Source: Planctomycetota bacterium (GTDB lineage: Bacteria; Planctomycetota; B15-G4). From it: a DNA stretch of 64,000 nt. Positions within the stretch are counted from its first letter, which is position 1, and each line of letters begins with the position of its first letter. Under the pieces are notes generated by a model that worked only from the letters and a program-made list of their open reading frames with translations, had not been told where the DNA came from and made no database searches. The position numbers and the translations under genes were made by a program. This document shows, one piece after another, positions 24,305 through 39,156 of the stretch. The DNA lies in assembly GCA_029245865.1 (NCBI GenBank), contig JAQWOM010000056.1:1-64000 (forward strand), given 5' to 3'.

Positions 24305-25783
24305 GTGATCAGCGCACACACGGTCTTCCTTGTTTATCTCGCTGTCGCCATGGCATGGAACCTCCATGCCAGCAGTCGAAAGGAAGGCGAGACCCAACGC
24401 CCTCTATCGCAACGAGTGCTTGTTCCGCTGCTCGCCTTACTCACGGCAGTTCTCATTCGCGACCGATGGATCCCCAATGGCGAGGCATGGCTCACAACCG
24501 ACACGGTGCGCCACCTCTTCCCTCTCGCCTTTCTGGCGACCCTCATCCAGAACACTCATGTGATCGTGCACCGAGGTGCACGGCTCAGCGACATCCCACT
24601 GGTCTTGTTCAATGTTGGTGTGGGTGGTGCGGTGACCGTGGCAGACCTGTCCCTCTCTGGAGTCCCGCTAGGGCAGACCGCAGAGACACTGCTCTACGAC
24701 CACTCGGTCCTCCAACTGCTCCTGGGTTCACCCTTCGCCCAGAGTTGGACCCTGTCCTGGCACCTCCCCTTTCTCCTTCGACGCAGCGAACCGCGCTCGG
24801 TGCTGGATTACCTGGGAGGACTGCTGCCGGCGACACTCGCAGCTTTCGGGGCCGTCATTCTGGTGTCCTTTCACAGCTCAGCAGAACAGGTGCTGGCGAC
24901 CTTCGCCGACGAACCTCGCCAGTCTGTCGGCATACCTGCCAAGCTCGCCCTCGGCGTGACCGCACGGCCCGAGGGGCCACAGCAGCCTGGCGCTCCGGGA
25001 ACGCTCCGTTCCTGGGTGCTGCCGGCCGATCACGACGGCCAAAACCTTCCTCCTGACGATGGACGCCCCTTGGTACTCGAGCTACGGGCTCCCGACGCCT
25101 GGTCGATTTCGATGCCCGGGGACACCACGAACGACGCAACGCCCCACGCACTCCGAGAACAAGTCTTTCTGGAAGGGGCCGAGCGCCTGGCTCGAAAACT
25201 CCATCCCGCGGTTCTGCTTCCCTTCCCGGAGCCAGACGGCGAGGCCACCCGGATCTTCGGTGCATCCCAGACGCCTCAGCAATGGGCTGCACGCATACAA
25301 GAGGTGGCCGAGCGCCTGGCCACCGCAAGCCCACAAACCGCAATGGCCGTACGTCTCCGCGGGCATGGAGAGCGAAGTCGCGCTCTCTTCGAAGCGCTGG
25401 CTCCCTACGTGGCGATCATGGGCCCTCGGCTTGAACCCGGCGGAGACAATCGCGAGCACGTCGAACAGCGCGGAGCAGACCTGGCCGACACCGTCCTGGA
25501 AAGCTGGCGTGTGTGGCGCTCCGCGCTGGATGCACCGCCCCGCTGGTGGATCCTCGCGGCTGGGTGCTCTCCTCTCGCAGTGGGAGAACGAGCGCAACAG
25601 CGCTTTCTCGAAGGCTGCCTCGCACGTGCGGTCTCCGAACCAGAAGTCGAGGCGCTGCTCATGGACGGCCTGAGGGACCGCGGGCATACCCTCGGGCTGA
25701 TCCGCCCGGACGGCCAGCCACGCGAGGCGGGGCGCTGGGCCCTGCGCTTGCTCGACTCGCAAGGGGCTGCGCTCGGTCGCTAA
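24305..25783 (+). CDS. Membrane protein with large C-terminal soluble domain, unknown
   Basis: A 492-residue protein not assigned to a family. The first 185 residues contain about six hydrophobic segments (for example MISAHTVFLVYLAVAMAW, VLVPLLALLTAVLI, LFPLAFLATLIQ, IPLVLFNVGVGGAVTVADLSL, LLPATLAAFGAVILVSF). The remaining 300 residues are soluble; the order of hydrophobic strands and polar helices and the ending HTLGLIRPDGQPREAGRWALRLL recall the last strand and helix of TIM-barrel glycosidases, but no catalytic acid pair can be pointed to. It follows the Nudix gene closely and precedes argS by 116 bases. Confidence 0.6.
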   Translation: MISAHTVFLVYLAVAMAWNLHASSRKEGETQRPLSQRVLVPLLALLTAVLIRDRWIPNGEAWLTTDTVRHLFPLAFLATLIQNTHVIVHRGARLSDIPLVLFNVGVGGAVTVADLSLSGVPLGQTAETLLYDHSVLQLLLGSPFAQSWTLSWHLPFLLRRSEPRSVLDYLGGLLPATLAAFGAVILVSFHSSAEQVLATFADEPRQSVGIPAKLALGVTARPEGPQQPGAPGTLRSWVLPADHDGQNLPPDDGRPLVLELRAPDAWSISMPGDTTNDATPHALREQVFLEGAERLARKLHPAVLLPFPEPDGEATRIFGASQTPQQWAARIQEVAERLATASPQTAMAVRLRGHGERSRALFEALAPYVAIMGPRLEPGGDNREHVEQRGADLADTVLESWRVWRSALDAPPRWWILAAGCSPLAVGERAQQRFLEGCLARAVSEPEVEALLMDGLRDRGHTLGLIRPDGQPREAGRWALRLLDSQGAALGR

Positions 25784-25899
25784 CATGCGCCCTCATTGAC
25801 ACAAACGGCCCCGGACAATGTTTTCCCAACAGGATGCGGGGCTCGGTCGGCAAGGTTCCCTATTGTTGGCTTTCCTGCTTCTCCATCACTGAACCAACC

Positions 25900-27618
25900 A
25901 TGAGCCGATTTGCACGCCCCTTCGCCGAAGCCCTCGCTCCTCTCGTGGAGCTTCCAGTGGCTGACGTCGAGAAGCAGTTGGAGACCCCCCCGAAGCCCGG
26001 CATGGGGCAACTCGCCTTTCCATGTTTCCAGCTGGCCAAAACACTGCGCAAGGCTCCCCCGGCCATTGCCGAAGACCTTGCGTCGAAGATTCAGCCGACC
26101 GGGCTAATCAAAAAAGTGATCGCGACAGGCCCCTACGTCAACGCCTACCTCGACGGCGAGGCCGTCGCGCGCGAGGTCCTCCCTGCGGCACTTGAGGCAG
26201 GTGAATGCTTCGGGAGCCTGAGCATCGGGGGCGGCCGTGCGGTCACCGTGGATTACTCATCCCCGAACATTGCCAAAAGCTTCGGCATCCATCACCTGCG
26301 TTCCACTGTCATAGGACACGCTTTGGTGAACATGCTGAAAGCTGCTGGGTTTCAGCCTGTTGGCATCAACCATCTCGGTGACTGGGGCACGCAGTTCGGC
26401 CAGCTCCTGGCGATCTGGGACGAGAAGGGTGACGAGGCCGAACTGAACGAACGCGGCATTGCTTATCTGCTCGAACTGTACGTGGAGTTCAATGCCGCCA
26501 AGGAGAAGAACCCCGAGCTGCAAGACGTGGCCCGCGCAAAGTTCAGATTGCTTGAAAACGGCGATGCTGAGGCGAGGCGTCTTTGGGCCCTGTTCAGAAA
26601 GGTGTCGCTCGACGAGTTTGAGCGCGTCTACGCCATGCTGGGCATTCAGTTCGATGACATGCGTGGCGAAAGTTTCTATGAGGGGCTGATGCCTGCTGTC
26701 CTCACAGAACTCAAAGAACGCAATCTCTTGACCGAGAGCAAGGGCGCCACCGTGGTGGACCTGGAGGCATTTGATCTGGGCACAGCTCTGGTACGCAAAG
26801 CCGACGGCTCCACCCTGTACCTGACGCGCGATCTGGCCTCTGCCGGCTATCGCAAGGAGAGCTACGATTTCGTGCGCTCGCTCTACGTCGTCGGGGGCTC
26901 TCAGGCGCTTCATTTCGCACAAATGACCAAAGTGCTCGAGCTGATGGAACGCCCCTGGTTCGACACCATAGAGCACGTCCCTTTCGGCCTGATGCGCTTC
27001 AAGGACCGCAAGATGAGCACCCGCAAGGGCGACATCGTGCCGCTCCGAGACGTACTCGAACAGGCAGCAGCGCTCGCGAAGCAGACCATCGTGAAGGGTG
27101 CAGAAGACAAAAGCCGCCCCATTCCAGACGATGTCGATGAGCTGGCACACCGCATCGGCGTGGGCGCCGTCGTTTTCAATGACCTGAAGAACCGCCGGGT
27201 TCGCGATGTCGTGTTCGATTGGGATGAAGTGCTCGCCTTTGACGGTGAAACAGGGCCGTACCTGCAGTACACCGCAGCGCGCATCGCCTCCATGGAAGCT
27301 CGCTACGGGAAGCCCCCTTCTGCTGATGTGGACTTCCACCTGCTCGACGGCCCCGGTGAACTTGCGCTCATCGTTGCGATCTCCGAAATGCCCGACTCGT
27401 TGCAACGCGGCCTGGAATCCTGCGAGCCGTCCTACGTGTCAGACAAACTGCTAGAGATCGCCTCTTTATTCAGCACGCTTTACAGCAACCGCTCGTGGAA
27501 GGTCCTGTCGGAAGATGTCGCTCTCACGGATGCCCGCATGCTGTTGGCGCACGGTGTCCGGCAGGCACTCTGCAATGGCCTCGGCTGGCTCGGGATTCCC
27601 GTGCCCGCACGCATGTAA
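25900..27618 (+). CDS. argS: Arginyl-tRNA synthetase
   Basis: A class I aminoacyl-tRNA synthetase of 572 residues charging tRNA-Arg. The start MSRFARPFAEALAPL is chosen because the longer frame reaches back into the membrane protein gene. The N-terminal Add-1 domain is followed by VDYSSPNIAKSFGIHHLRST, where the HIGH box reads Gly129-Ile-His-His instead of HxGH; KMSKS corresponds to KMSTRKGDIV. The anticodon-binding part contains GPYLQYTAARIASM and LLAHGVRQALCNGLGWLGIPVPARM. No Shine-Dalgarno site is visible. It is followed by apt after 43 bases. Confidence 0.95.
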   Translation: MSRFARPFAEALAPLVELPVADVEKQLETPPKPGMGQLAFPCFQLAKTLRKAPPAIAEDLASKIQPTGLIKKVIATGPYVNAYLDGEAVAREVLPAALEAGECFGSLSIGGGRAVTVDYSSPNIAKSFGIHHLRSTVIGHALVNMLKAAGFQPVGINHLGDWGTQFGQLLAIWDEKGDEAELNERGIAYLLELYVEFNAAKEKNPELQDVARAKFRLLENGDAEARRLWALFRKVSLDEFERVYAMLGIQFDDMRGESFYEGLMPAVLTELKERNLLTESKGATVVDLEAFDLGTALVRKADGSTLYLTRDLASAGYRKESYDFVRSLYVVGGSQALHFAQMTKVLELMERPWFDTIEHVPFGLMRFKDRKMSTRKGDIVPLRDVLEQAAALAKQTIVKGAEDKSRPIPDDVDELAHRIGVGAVVFNDLKNRRVRDVVFDWDEVLAFDGETGPYLQYTAARIASMEARYGKPPSADVDFHLLDGPGELALIVAISEMPDSLQRGLESCEPSYVSDKLLEIASLFSTLYSNRSWKVLSEDVALTDARMLLAHGVRQALCNGLGWLGIPVPARM

Positions 27619-27661
27619 CCGAGCAACGCCCCTACACTTTCTCTCTTGGAGCCCCTCGACG

Positions 27662-28180
27662 ATGACGAACATTGAGAACTTCATTCGCGACATCCCGGAT
27701 TTCCCGAAGCCCGGGATTACATTCAAGGACATCACGCCACTCCTGGGTGACGCCAAGGCCTTCCGCGCAAGCATCGATCAACTCGCCGAGTCGCTTGCCG
27801 GCCTTCCGTGCGATGCCATTGTCGGGATTGAATCCCGAGGATTTCTTTTTGGCGCCGCACTGGCACTTGTCATGGATGTCGGCTTCGTCCCGATCCGAAA
27901 GCCCGGCAAATTGCCCCATGACACCGTGTCCCGCGAATACTCACTCGAATACGGCACCGACACCGTGGAGATGCACCGAGACGGGGTTCAGAGCGGGCAA
28001 TCGCTGATCATCATCGATGACCTGATTGCCACCGGAGGCACCGCCACGGCGGCCTGTGAGCTGGTCGAAGACGTGGGAGCCAAGGTTTCGGCCCTCGGAT
28101 TCATCATCGCCCTCGATTTCATCCCCTGGAGAGATCGTCTGGGAGACCGAGAAGTCCGCGCCCTGCTGCGCTATTCCTGA
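27662..28180 (+). CDS. apt: Adenine phosphoribosyltransferase
   Basis: The 172-residue cytoplasmic enzyme salvages adenine by forming AMP from adenine and PRPP. The PRPP-binding motif is LIIIDDLIATGGTATAA; the adenine-side regions are IPDFPKPGITFKDITPLL and the dimer/flexible loop RKPGKLPHDTVSREYSLEYG. The start MTNIENFIRDIPDFP is preferred over the longer frame that overlaps argS. Length and order match E. coli Apt closely. It is co-directional with argS and the next unknown gene. Confidence 0.96.
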   Translation: MTNIENFIRDIPDFPKPGITFKDITPLLGDAKAFRASIDQLAESLAGLPCDAIVGIESRGFLFGAALALVMDVGFVPIRKPGKLPHDTVSREYSLEYGTDTVEMHRDGVQSGQSLIIIDDLIATGGTATAACELVEDVGAKVSALGFIIALDFIPWRDRLGDREVRALLRYS

Positions 28181-28303: not shown

Positions 28304-28852
28304 ATGCCCACCTCCAAGACGAGCCTCCCGATGTCGACTCGCTTCCAAGACAAGTTGAAGCAGATCCGCGATGCCAGCCAAAAACGCAGCGAGGCCTCCC
28401 ATAAGGTCCGCTCCGAGGCTGACATTCAGAAATCCCAACTCACTGTGGCTGCCTTTGAGTACCGCGAGCAGCTGGAAGTCGTGATCGACGACTTCGTGAA
28501 GAATTTCCTCACCGAGGCCCCTGGCTTCGCACTGACCCGGGGATTCTTCGAGGGCAAGTACATGCTGGCCCTCCGCCTCGACGAGCAGTTGATCGACAGC
28601 GACGGCCAGATTGGCAACTATTTCTCGCGTCTGATGTTCCTGCTCGACCCCCACAGCAACGAGAAGACCTTCGGCATTCAGTGCCGCAAGACCATCCGGA
28701 ACCGCGATTTCGAGACCCACAGCCACGCCACCACCATGGACGGGGTAGGCCGAGAGGAACTCGAGCAGTTCATCGAATCCCAGTTCCTTGGGTTTGCCGA
28801 GGGCTATTTCGGTGAGACGAATCTGACCAAGCCCTCCAGCCTTCCTATCTGA
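28304..28852 (+). CDS. Conserved-looking protein of unknown function
   Basis: A soluble protein of 182 residues from the ATG at 28304, or 173 from 28331. It begins with a charged helix (STRFQDKLKQIRDASQKRSEASHKVRSEAD), followed by a mixed alpha/beta part with GFALTRGFFEGKYMLALRLDEQLIDSDG and ending FLGFAEGYFGETNLTKPSSLPI. No signal peptide, membrane segment or metal motif. Composition and codon use look like the neighbouring genes, so it is probably real. No family recognised. It lies 123 bases after apt and before the long leader of the sigma gene. Confidence 0.65.
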   Translation: MPTSKTSLPMSTRFQDKLKQIRDASQKRSEASHKVRSEADIQKSQLTVAAFEYREQLEVVIDDFVKNFLTEAPGFALTRGFFEGKYMLALRLDEQLIDSDGQIGNYFSRLMFLLDPHSNEKTFGIQCRKTIRNRDFETHSHATTMDGVGREELEQFIESQFLGFAEGYFGETNLTKPSSLPI

Positions 28853-29171
28853 ATCGCTGGATTTTGAGGCCTTTTCGAGGCCTTGAACGTCGCACTTCAT
28901 GGCGAACAGCCAACTCCTGGCCCTCGCCCGCGGGATCTCCTGAGAAGGCCTTGGATTTTTTTGTTCCCAAAAGAAAACTAACGGTTAAGTTAGTATTCAG
29001 GAATGACGATCACTTGGAGTGACGTTGTTCTCGCAGCAGGATTGATTTTCATCGGTATCTGCCCCTCATGCTTCTCGCTCCACCAGAAGCTGTGGCTTGT
29101 ACAGTTTGTACACCTTGCACCGATAACATTCCTGCTGTCGCTACCTCTGAGCTCTCCAGGCCTAGAGGTGG
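28853..29171. other. Non-coding leader region upstream of the sigma gene
   Basis: This stretch holds a short inverted repeat AGGCC/GGCCT near 28868-28884, a run of seven T near 28955-28961 and the palindrome at 28977-28994. The start of the sigma gene transcript should lie here, since the aptamer downstream must be transcribed. A small open frame (29003-29191) ends inside the aptamer and is not accepted as a gene. Confidence 0.5.
28977..28994. promoter_or_regulatory. Possible operator: inverted repeat ACTAAC-N6-GTTAGT
   Basis: Perfect 6-base arms (ACTAAC and GTTAGT) flank GGTTAA, about 180 bases before the c-di-GMP aptamer and in the only AT-rich part of the leader. It could bind a dimeric regulator of the sigma gene or overlap its promoter. 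No factor can be named. Confidence 0.3.
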
Positions 29172-29258
29172 ACAGGGCAAACCGTCCGTAAGGGCGGGAC
29201 GCAAAACTAAAGGGCCCGGCCACCGCCATGCGGCTGACCGGGCAGCCAGTTGCCGACA
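29172..29258 (+). promoter_or_regulatory. Cyclic-di-GMP-I (GEMM-I) riboswitch aptamer
   Basis: The order of conserved parts matches the GEMM-I class. ACAGGGCAAACC opens the aptamer; P2 is CCGTCC (29182-29187) paired to GGGCGG (29192-29197) across a GTAA tetraloop of the GNRA type; GGACGCAAA follows (29197-29205). P3 is GCCCGG (29214-29219) paired with CCGGGC (29238-29243), with an inner CCGC/GCGG helix; then AGCCAGTTGCC closes, with GGCAA (29176-29180) complementary to TTGCC (29250-29254). The Shine-Dalgarno AGGAG (29263-29267) of the sigma gene starts eight bases after P1, so the platform probably controls translation start. No terminator hairpin with a T-run is visible. Whether ligand turns expression on or off cannot be told. 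Confidence 0.88.
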
Positions 29259-29276
29259 AAACAGGAGAAGTCGCCG

Positions 29277-30191
29277 ATGTCCGTTACGAAAGCTGCACCC
29301 AAAGCCAAGAAGTCGTCCACCAAGTCCCCCAAGGCCACCGCGAAGAAGGCCACGAAGCGCAAGACCACTGCGAAGGCCAAGTCAAAGGCCAAGTCGCCTG
29401 CCAAGCGCAAGAAGGTCTTCGGCGAAATCGGTGGGGAGAATGAGAAGCTCTGGCGCACCTACGCCAAGTCTCACGACCCTGCTCTGCGCAATCAGCTCAT
29501 GGAGATGTACCTGCCCGTTGTGCAGTTCATCGCCGAACGCTTGCAGTTGACCCTTCCCCGCAGCATCGAAGTCGATGACCTCAAGAGCGCCGGCGTGTTC
29601 GGGCTCATGGATGCCATTGATGGCTTCGACATCGATCGCGGTATCAAGTTCAAGACCTACTGCAGCACCCGCATTCGCGGAGCCATCCTCGATGAGCTTC
29701 GTAGCCAGGACTGGGTCCCCCGCCTTGTGCGACTCCGTGGACATCAGTTGGCTCGCACGCAGGCGGCACTTGAAGCGCGACACGGCCGACTGCCTACGGA
29801 CGCAGAGATGGCGGAAGAGATGAACCTGAGTGTTCACGCTTACATCGCCATCACTGAAGAAGCTCGTGCGCACACCGTGCGGTCGCTCTCAGAGTCCTGG
29901 GACGACGGGTCAGGTGACCAGCCGGTTGAAAAAATTGATTTCCTCCGGGATCCGAACTCGCCAAACCCGGCCGATGTGCTGAACCAAGAAGATGTCATGG
30001 TTGCCATCATCCGCTCCCTGAACCGCAGGGAGAAAGAGATCATCCTCATGTACTACCGCGACGGATTGACCATGAAGCAGATCGGAAGCCTCATGACACT
30101 CACCGAGTCGCGCGTCTGTCAGGTACACAGCAACGTGATGCGTAAGTTGAAGTTGCATCTCGAAGAGCGCCACCAGCAACTGGCGGTCTGA
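29277..30191 (+). CDS. FliA/WhiG-family RNA polymerase sigma factor with H1-like N-terminal tail
   Basis: The start at 29277 is fixed by AGGAG nine bases upstream. Residues 1-46 are almost only Lys, Ala, Ser, Thr and Pro, like a histone H1 tail. The sigma part then shows region 2 (YLPVVQFIAERL, VDDLKSAGVFGLMDAIDGFD, KFKTYCSTRIRGAILDELRSQDWVPR), region 3 (RHGRLPTDAEMAEEM) and region 4 (LNRREKEIILMYYRDGLTMKQIGSLMTLTESRVCQVHSNVMRKL). The GAILDELRxxDWVPR signature is that of the sigma-28 group (FliA, WhiG, SigD). It sits directly under a c-di-GMP riboswitch. No flagellar gene or anti-sigma factor (FlgM, RsiG) lies in the window, so the regulon is unknown. Confidence 0.93.
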   Translation: MSVTKAAPKAKKSSTKSPKATAKKATKRKTTAKAKSKAKSPAKRKKVFGEIGGENEKLWRTYAKSHDPALRNQLMEMYLPVVQFIAERLQLTLPRSIEVDDLKSAGVFGLMDAIDGFDIDRGIKFKTYCSTRIRGAILDELRSQDWVPRLVRLRGHQLARTQAALEARHGRLPTDAEMAEEMNLSVHAYIAITEEARAHTVRSLSESWDDGSGDQPVEKIDFLRDPNSPNPADVLNQEDVMVAIIRSLNRREKEIILMYYRDGLTMKQIGSLMTLTESRVCQVHSNVMRKLKLHLEERHQQLAV

Positions 30192-30197
30192 TCTTCG

Positions 30198-30240
30198 GCG
30201 TACACCGGGTCTGGCCGTGGGAGGCGGGCCCGGTGTATGC
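30198..30240. terminator. Strong hairpin between convergent genes
   Basis: GCGTACACCGGG pairs with CCCGGTGTATGC (12 pairs including one G-T) around a 19-base loop, seven bases after the sigma gene stop and before the end of the convergent DUF454 gene. No T-run follows on either strand, so it may be a bidirectional or processing hairpin rather than a classic terminator. Confidence 0.5.
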
Positions 30241-30279
30241 GCTGCAGCAACCGACTGACGAAGGGCAGCGAAAAGCGTC

Positions 30280-30762
30280 CTATTCTGGGCTGCCCTCGCC
30301 ATCTTTCCACACGGGTAAGCGCGCAAGGAAGGCAATCAGGCAGGCGCCGACAAGCACCAAGGCGATCCGGCCGAACAAGCTGTCGAGCACCCACGCCGAA
30401 ATGCCGAGGGTCACCACGACCAAAACAATGGCCTTGGACTTCACCCCCACGGGAAGTGCTCGGCGATCTCGCCAGGCTTTCAAAGTGGGGCCGAACACTC
30501 GGTGCCTGAGCAACCATTCCAGAAAGCGTGGATCACCTCGGGCAAAGCAGGCCGCAGCCAACAGAAGGAAGGGAGTGGTTGGCAACAACGGCAGAACAGC
30601 GCCCGCCCCACCAAGACCGACACAGGCGAAGCCCGCCACCAGCCACACCCGACGCGAGGCTCGACTTGATTGCACAGGCTCAGCGCTCAGTTTCTCAGCC
30701 GAAGTCTGTTCAGCTGCCGTTTCTGAGACGGCTCGCGGCGACGATCCAGGATTGATAGTCAT
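30280..30762 (-). CDS. YbaN/DUF454 small inner-membrane protein
   Basis: From the ATG at 30762 the protein has 160 residues. The diagnostic DUF454 stretch is GLGGAGAVLPLLPTTPFLLLAAACFARG with the following FLEWLLRHRVFGPTLKAWRDRRALP; two further hydrophobic segments are VKSKAIVLVVVTLGISAWV and IALVLVGACLIAFLARLPVW. The first 40 residues are polar and Ser/Ala/Glu-rich. Function of the family is unknown. The gene is divergent from birA (84 bases) and convergent with the sigma gene. Confidence 0.85.
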   Translation of the reverse strand: MTINPGSSPRAVSETAAEQTSAEKLSAEPVQSSRASRRVWLVAGFACVGLGGAGAVLPLLPTTPFLLLAAACFARGDPRFLEWLLRHRVFGPTLKAWRDRRALPVGVKSKAIVLVVVTLGISAWVLDSLFGRIALVLVGACLIAFLARLPVWKDGEGSPE

Positions 30763-38038: not shown

Positions 38039-38053
38039 GGCCCGTGGCGGGCC
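38039..38053 (+). terminator. GC hairpin followed by T4
   Basis: GGCCCG and CGGGCC pair across TGG, followed by CGACTCTTTT. It lies 28 bases after the LptB stop and before the Shine-Dalgarno site of the next gene. The T-run is short and offset, so termination would be partial at best. Confidence 0.3.
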
Positions 38054-38079
38054 CGACTCTTTTGGAGGGGCGACCTAAC

Positions 38080-39156
38080 ATGGTGCGTCAAGCACAGGCA
38101 GGCATACGGGCACAGGAATCAAGCCGGCCCGATTGGCATCGGCTGGAACGGTCAGCGATTCTTGTCGTTGATGACGACCCGGGAGTGCGCGACACCGTTT
38201 CACGCTGTCTGCAAATCGACGGCTACGAAGTGTGCGGCGCGGCAAATCTCGGCGAGGCGCGACAGCATCTCGAATCGCGAGACATCTTCCTCGTGCTGAC
38301 AGACATCACACTTGAAGGTGGTGAAAGCGGCCTGGACCTGCTGGACGAACTCCAGGCACAACGGTCGAGCATGCCCATCATCATGATGACCGCAAACAGC
38401 GAGTTGACCTCTGCGGTCGAAGCACTCAAGAAGGGCGCGTACGACTATCTCTGCAAACCTTTTCCCTTTGAGGCTGTGCGCGCTGCTGTACGACGCGTGG
38501 TGGATCACTTGCGAGCTGTCGAGAGATCAACACTGATCGAAGAACTCGAGACGCGTAAGCAAGCGGAAGACGAAAGCCTTCAACAGTTTCTCGTTTCCAT
38601 GGCAACTGTCGTTGATGCAAAAAGTCGCTTCACGGCGCTGCACGGAGCACGCGTGTCAGAATTGTGCCGTTTGCTTGGAGAGGCGCTGGGCTACGACTCC
38701 GAACGCACGGAGCTTGTCGCGCTCGGAGGGCGCCTGCATGACATTGGAAAAATTGGCACGCCCGACGCGATTCTCGACAAGCCTGGCCCACTGACGCGCG
38801 AAGAGTACGCCGTGATTCAAGAGCACCCAGCGATCGGTGACGATCTCATTGCACCGATCAAGGTCCTGAGCCACCTTCGCCCCATGATTCGCTCTCACCA
38901 CGAGAGCTTGGACGGCAAAGGATATCCGGACGCGATGCCGGGCGATCAGGTCCCCGAGGAAGCCTGGGTGGTCAAAGTGGCGGACTACTGGGAGGCCATC
39001 ACGGCACGCCGCCCCTACCGCAATCCAATGCCGCTTGAAAAGGCCGTAGCCTGCCTCAGGGGGGAAGCGGGCATACGCATTCCCGAAGACTTCGTAGAGG
39101 TCTTTTTGGCCGCAATTCCCGGGGCGCCGATCGCACTACCCTCAGGCGCTGCCTGA
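38080..39156 (+). CDS. Response regulator with HD-GYP domain (c-di-GMP phosphodiesterase type)
   Basis: The ATG at 38080 has GGAGGGG about ten bases upstream; a GTG at 38044 is less likely. Residues about 25-145 are a receiver domain: acidic pocket AILVVDDDPGVRD, phosphoacceptor Asp in LVLTDITLEGG, IIMMTAN and the Lys in YLCKPFPFEA. A helical linker follows, then an HD-GYP domain: TALHGARVSELC, GRLHDIGKIGTPDAIL, QEHPAIGDDLI, RSHHESLDGKGYPDAMPG and VADYWEAITARRPYR. All HD-GYP metal and GYP residues are present, so hydrolysis of cyclic-di-GMP is likely. The partner kinase is not adjacent. It is on the same strand as the c-di-GMP-riboswitch-controlled sigma gene 8 kb upstream. Confidence 0.92.
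   Translation: MVRQAQAGIRAQESSRPDWHRLERSAILVVDDDPGVRDTVSRCLQIDGYEVCGAANLGEARQHLESRDIFLVLTDITLEGGESGLDLLDELQAQRSSMPIIMMTANSELTSAVEALKKGAYDYLCKPFPFEAVRAAVRRVVDHLRAVERSTLIEELETRKQAEDESLQQFLVSMATVVDAKSRFTALHGARVSELCRLLGEALGYDSERTELVALGGRLHDIGKIGTPDAILDKPGPLTREEYAVIQEHPAIGDDLIAPIKVLSHLRPMIRSHHESLDGKGYPDAMPGDQVPEEAWVVKVADYWEAITARRPYRNPMPLEKAVACLRGEAGIRIPEDFVEVFLAAIPGAPIALPSGAA

Follow-up and report, generated by a model that had tools for sequence, protein, structure and literature searches.

The FliA/WhiG-family sigma factor gene at 29277-30191 is preceded directly by a c-di-GMP-I (GEMM-I) riboswitch aptamer, and we think it reasonably probable that this leader is a working riboswitch that sets the amount of the sigma factor in the OFF sense. 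The window, by which we mean the whole 64,000-nucleotide stretch that was analysed, belongs to a Planctomycetota MAG of 3.33 Mb in 57 contigs (90.7% complete), and every one of its nearest named relatives is likewise a Planctomycetota MAG; DHS20C15 is the closest of them, its sigma factor being 84% identical. An earlier note, made from the sequence alone, had placed such a riboswitch in front of this gene and proposed that it would turn a c-di-GMP level into a whole regulon. The observation was confirmed, and the interpretation was partly supported. The features of the leader and the gene are as follows.

29166-29257, + strand: c-di-GMP-I (GEMM-I) riboswitch aptamer, from the RF01051 score, clade-wide covariation and the family footprint
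29176-29180, + strand: 5' strand of P1, GGCAA
29182-29197, + strand: P2 hairpin with the GNRA loop GTAA at 29188-29191; all six pairs vary on both sides across relatives
29198-29205, + strand: conserved GACGCAAA
29250-29254, + strand: 3' strand of P1, TTGCC, read from the sequence and aligned with relatives
29263-29267, + strand: Shine-Dalgarno AGGAG, separated by 8 nt from the end of P1 and by 9 nt from the ATG, read from the sequence
29277-30191, + strand: FliA/WhiG-family sigma factor gene, 304 aa (ATG at 29277, stop at 30191), from TIGR02479 and Sigma70 r2, r3 and r4
29277-29420, + strand: 48-residue Lys/Ala/Ser/Thr-rich N-terminal tail of the sigma factor (85% K/R/A/S/T)

An Rfam cmscan of the whole window placed RF01051 at 29166-29257 on the + strand. 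The score was 58.4 bits (E = 7.8e-9), where the cut-off is 35; the match covered the full model, positions 1-87, and c-di-GMP-I was the only Rfam family above its gathering score. It was also the single c-di-GMP-I match above the cut-off in the whole genome, the runners-up scoring 14.4 and 13.8 bits. The covariance-model check that the earlier note had called for thus upheld the element itself, and its start at 29172 turned out to sit a few bases inside the Rfam match. All the GEMM-I elements that had been listed, GGCAAACC, a GTAA-capped P2, GACGCAAA, P3 and AGCC...GTTGCC, were present when the sequence was read, and the claimed distance of eight bases between P1 and the Shine-Dalgarno site is exact, P1 ending at 29254 and AGGAG beginning at 29263. 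In the Rfam alignment P3 appears as a plain helix, whereas the usual GEMM-I P3 carries a UAAG/UAU bulge.

The c-di-GMP-selective contacts in Vc2, the RF01051 riboswitch of V. cholerae, are G20, A47 and C92. Position 29176 is what we take to be the equivalent of G20, a ligand contact, and GACGCAAA presumably holds the equivalents of C44 and A47. In Vc2 numbering, the presumed equivalents of G20, G21, C44 and A47 were invariant in all 62 aptamers compared, and that of C92 was kept in 59 of the 62. Because four of these residues are invariant and C92 is nearly so, the predicted ligand is c-di-GMP, not cGAMP. A GEMM-I aptamer with the G20A change binds 3',3'-cGAMP (PMC6274999), but with a G at this place in 62/62 aptamers we consider it very improbable that the aptamer is a cGAMP sensor (GEMM-Ib). 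The genome carries four GGDEF genes, which makes synthesis of c-di-GMP plausible. A candidate for a c-di-GMP phosphodiesterase is encoded at 38044-39156, about 8 kb downstream of the riboswitch: this product is a response regulator whose HD-GYP-like domain scored 101.8 bits (HD_5) and has the motif HHESLDGKGYP.

Covariation was measured over 65 distinct aptamers. In an alignment that was fitted to the tested structure and so somewhat favours it, although that structure is essentially the one in Rfam, the named helices were paired in 93.4% of cells compared with 77.5% in shuffles, and double-sided changes occurred in 11 of the 15 helix pairs, a level reached by 0/500 shuffles. Every sliding control gave far lower values, with pairing collapsing.

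The product of the downstream gene matched NCBIfam TIGR02479 (FliA_WhiG) with 230 bits over a cut-off of 189.6, as expected from the FliA/WhiG type assigned to it in the earlier note, and the Pfam Sigma70 regions r2, r3 and r4 were all matched. The cut-offs of the WhiG equivalog NF004935 (253.5 vs 343 bits) and of the FliA subfamily NF005413 (198.3 vs 201 bits) were not reached; the protein is related to WhiG and not filed as WhiG. By sequence, its best solved relative is 6pfv (E = 1.3e-56), which we take to be Streptomyces WhiG from the RsiG-c-di-GMP-WhiG complex. The N-terminal tail is histone-H1-like; similar tails of 68-105 aa are found at loci L044, L046-L048, L056 and L061, and the tail is short or absent in other clade members, e.g. 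L114 and L118. The genome also has a second FliA/WhiG paralogue without a riboswitch (G000:C28:49120-49770; L035, L128), located among valS-, kdsA- and uvrD-like genes (names read from translations).

We surveyed genomes of Planctomycetota only, nearly all of them MAGs. A regex motif scan found the aptamer motif upstream in most of 80 sigma loci. In a maximum-likelihood tree of 115 proteins, all 62 aptamer-bearing sigma factors fell within one clade of 75 (support 98/92), and an aptamer was present for none of the 40 sigma factors outside it. Our own covariance model, R1, matched 66 of 90 sources, adding an aptamer at L069 (70.5 bits) and weak copies at L092, L106 and L107, which are probably decayed. 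Seven clade members lack the aptamer (L047, L050, L051, L055, L104, L109 and L158), and for L094 and L101 the upstream sequence is incomplete. Aptamer and sigma gene were adjacent in 26 of 98 related genomes, representing 11 families, and GEMM-I scored above the cut-off in 42 of the 98. The simplest reading is one ancient gain followed by several losses. Within the window's own family the riboswitch is retained in 5 of 6 genomes; at L047 in genome G005 the aptamer is gone and the sigma gene is kept. The orthologous sigma genes with decayed or lost aptamers (L092, L106, L107, L047, L109) constitute natural knock-outs.

The linkage across 26 genomes and 11 families, together with the single-clade association, rules out a chance or one-off pairing. 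It also bears on the proposal that the aptamer is a trans-acting or sponge c-di-GMP RNA that lies beside the sigma gene by chance, for which the merRNA of Bdellovibrio is the precedent (PMC3627812). Bdellovibrio resembles the present case in that one organism has both a GEMM-type RNA and a FliA-family sigma factor whose regulon has broadened and is partly non-flagellar. The merRNA, however, has no conserved downstream gene and is not a fliA leader (PMC3627812), whereas the leader in the window is linked to one sigma orthologue and runs directly into the Shine-Dalgarno site, so that a sponge is barely conceivable here.

Other planctomycete GEMM-I aptamers precede secreted or surface genes (L006, L008, L009, L031, L032), namely those for a subtilase with an Ig domain, a PcRGLX-like protein, a DUF1559 pseudopilin-like protein, a Tad/Flp pilus-like protein and a Big_7 protein. 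An unusually large riboswitch regulon is seen in family f43, where c-di-GMP-I matched 35 times in genome G060 and 21 times in G080; a third member, G097, had 6 matches.

Two genes upstream of the pair serve as syntenic markers.

25513-27618, + strand: argS, by tblastn synteny in relatives; ORF as listed, with the true start inside
27515-28180, + strand: apt, with a Pribosyltran domain; ORF as listed, with the true start inside

In 37 aptamer-bearing loci, the window included, apt, often together with argS, lies upstream of the sigma gene on the same strand, and the ancestral order seems to have been argS, apt, riboswitch, sigma. At 16 loci fliP and fliQ come after the sigma gene in the same orientation, as do fliR, flhB and flhA where the contig reaches that far, often with an HDOD gene between the sigma gene and the flagellar export genes. 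The idea that this sigma factor was never flagellar was dropped, since it heads flagellar export genes at these 16 loci. A conserved gene without a Pfam match (cluster c5: L070:2647-3774, L059:7948-8907 and orthologues) is located between the riboswitch sigma gene (and HDOD gene) and fliO/fliP; its product may be a switch or motor protein of the planctomycete flagellum.

Neither flhA nor fliP was found in the window genome at its 90.7% completeness, and both were absent from all 6 genomes of its family (84-92% complete). Flagellar genes are present in the sister families, f2 and f3, with a separate FliA paralogue beside flhA where both share one contig; in several flagellated relatives a different sigma paralogue adjoins flhA. 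That the riboswitch sigma is the ordinary flagellar FliA was rejected for the window, as flhA and fliP are missing. The riboswitch-sigma pair is also kept in genomes of f16, f29 and f59 in which no flhA was found. What the window shows is most likely the beginning of a former flagellar cluster that has lost its flagellar portion, and its family apparently lost its flagella and retained the c-di-GMP/sigma switch.

Given this history, aptamer and sigma gene could be relics of the lost operon that regulate nothing now. The loss of flagellar genes from 6/6 family genomes, the loss of the aptamer at L047 and the failure to find regulon promoters in the genome would all fit such a relic. Conservation speaks otherwise. 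Among five family members, mean pairwise identity was 74% in the 5' half of the aptamer and 96% at its 3' end, while in the same five the leader flanks reached 28% and the start of the coding sequence 33%; this strong footprint extends over the promoter, and the flanks are unalignable. Compensatory changes in P2 are seen inside the family as well, the sigma ORFs are intact and 73-84% identical between genera, and the aptamer persists in f16, f29 and f59. The footprint would thus reflect purifying selection after flagellar loss, and we regard a relic as quite improbable.

As to how the riboswitch might act, the start codon in the window's family lies 12-21 nt after the aptamer and no terminator was found in the leaders of the window or its family. 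Because of this spacing and the lack of a terminator, control in the family is probably translational. As in Vc2, P1 in the window is close to the ribosome-binding site, resembling a translational switch. In other families the gap between aptamer and start is 35-320 nt or more, and strong terminators were found in f16 (about -30 kcal/mol with a T run) and also at L056 and L103. Aptamer and target are conserved, and the expression platform turns over by lineage. The sign of the switch could not be read from the terminator-bearing relatives. Folding had pointed to a P0 helix that would enclose the aptamer and act as an anti-Shine-Dalgarno element, but this helix failed shuffle and cross-pair controls; it was significant in L044 only (Fisher p 0.14 across the family). 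Predicted accessibility of the Shine-Dalgarno site in the window changed little, from 0.20 in the free fold to 0.13 when the aptamer was constrained.

Vc2 has been described as an OFF switch that acts on translation and is keyed by P1 (PMC9262584), and the functional class I switches of C. difficile are OFF (PMC6366702). These precedents and the flagellar and motility ancestry of the locus are the reasons why, by analogy, the switch is probably OFF and Vc2-like. The opposite sign, with c-di-GMP turning the sigma factor ON for a sessile, surface or matrix programme, seems to us rather unlikely. GEMM-I aptamers, even highly similar ones, can be ON or OFF (PMC9262584), and the two in V. cholerae have opposite responses (PMC6366702). 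In one predicted fold of the window the leader's 5' flank GGACA and the P1 GGC pair with the start-codon region, but this pairing is absent from the folds of the other family members. In a lineage without flagella the motility argument for OFF is merely historical, and the Tad-like, pseudopilin-like and surface proteins behind other planctomycete GEMM-I aptamers would suit the ON sense; against this, in 16 relatives the switch heads flagellar export genes, where repression at high c-di-GMP is the general rule.

Two features upstream of the aptamer concern transcription of the gene.

29100-29126, + strand: FliA/WhiG-type promoter-like TACAGTTT-N11-ACCGATAA
29097-29113, no strand assigned: near-perfect dyad TTGTACA-N3-TGTACAc over the promoter, recurring at the same promoter in relatives

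The FliA consensus is TAAAGTTT-N11-GCCGATAA, and the element in the window matches it at 14 of 16 positions with exact spacing, a score reached by 0/2000 dinucleotide shuffles. FliA/WhiG-type promoters have been described with TAAA at -35 and GCCGATAA at -10 (PMC8325347). Family members share the promoter, with 13/16 matches in L044 and L047 and 12/16 in L046 and L048, and no sigma-70-like promoter was found in 28800-30300; by sequence reading, f2 and f3 relatives have sigma-70-like promoters at the corresponding place. Because a FliA-like promoter precedes the aptamer and is common to four family members, it is plausible that the sigma factor transcribes its own gene. In the genome the canonical TAAA-N14-16-GCCGATA gave 0 matches, and looser FliA-type patterns gave fewer matches than the reversed control. 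As no other good FliA-type match was found in the genome, the regulon must be small or else be served by weaker promoters. The dyad, allowing one mismatch, occurs once each in the window genome (G000), G002 and G007, always at the sigma promoter, with 0 control matches; it may be the operator of a dedicated regulator.

In the mechanism that we propose, c-di-GMP at high level would stabilise P1. The end of this helix is 8 nt away from the Shine-Dalgarno site, and once stabilised it would reduce translation of the sigma factor, in the manner of Vc2. A fall in c-di-GMP would allow the sigma factor to be made; it would probably transcribe its own gene, using the FliA-like promoter that precedes the aptamer. 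It would then switch on a regulon, which would now have to be non-flagellar. A wider reading, which we hold only tentatively, is that the pair is an RNA-level counterpart of RsiG-WhiG, ancient in Planctomycetota, that arose in a flagellar operon and was kept and rewired after flagellar loss; in the window's family the sigma factor would transcribe its own riboswitch-controlled gene, which would make the pair a commitment switch that amplifies itself and is gated by c-di-GMP.

Several parts of this arrangement are already known: the riboswitch class, the sigma family, the sigD precedent of C. difficile (PMC6366702) and the control of WhiG by RsiG (PMC8325347). The aptamer is like Vc2 in architecture, ligand-contact residues and covariation, but its target, compared with c-di-GMP-I riboswitches such as Vc2, is a sigma factor gene. 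In C. difficile the Cd1 riboswitch controls the flgB operon, which contains sigD (PMC6366702). Both systems place a class I c-di-GMP riboswitch over a sigma-28-family gene; in C. difficile flagellar genes follow, as they do in the 16 planctomycete relatives. Cd1, however, stands at the head of a flagellar operon of 23 kb with sigD inside it, whereas the sigma gene in the window lies directly behind the aptamer, in a family without flagella. The RsiG-(c-di-GMP)-WhiG system of Streptomyces and Rubrobacter likewise puts a FliA/WhiG-family sigma factor with a non-flagellar output under c-di-GMP; there an anti-sigma protein is used, and here an mRNA leader. RsiG has been reported only in Actinobacteria (PMC8325347), and with 6pfv as the closest solved structure the comparison with WhiG and RsiG drawn in the earlier note was apt. 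That note knew of no described case in this lineage, and our literature search likewise found none in Planctomycetota. Nor did the search, which covered few subscription papers and is weak evidence in this respect, find a riboswitch-sigma pair that stands alone, is phylum-wide and persists where flagella are missing. To the initial observation the present analysis adds the phylum-wide conservation, the likely flagellar-operon origin, the lineage without flagella and, in Cd1, a precedent for riboswitch control of a sigma-28-type gene.

Cell types alternate in planctomycetes, and to our knowledge little is understood of how the choice between them is made. In the riboswitch-sigma pair, which is conserved in at least 11 families, they have a candidate master regulator whose input, c-di-GMP, is known and whose RNA element can be tested. 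The pair would give c-di-GMP a second route to a FliA/WhiG-type sigma factor, independent of the first in mechanism, and it would be a flagellar regulator that has outlived the flagellum.
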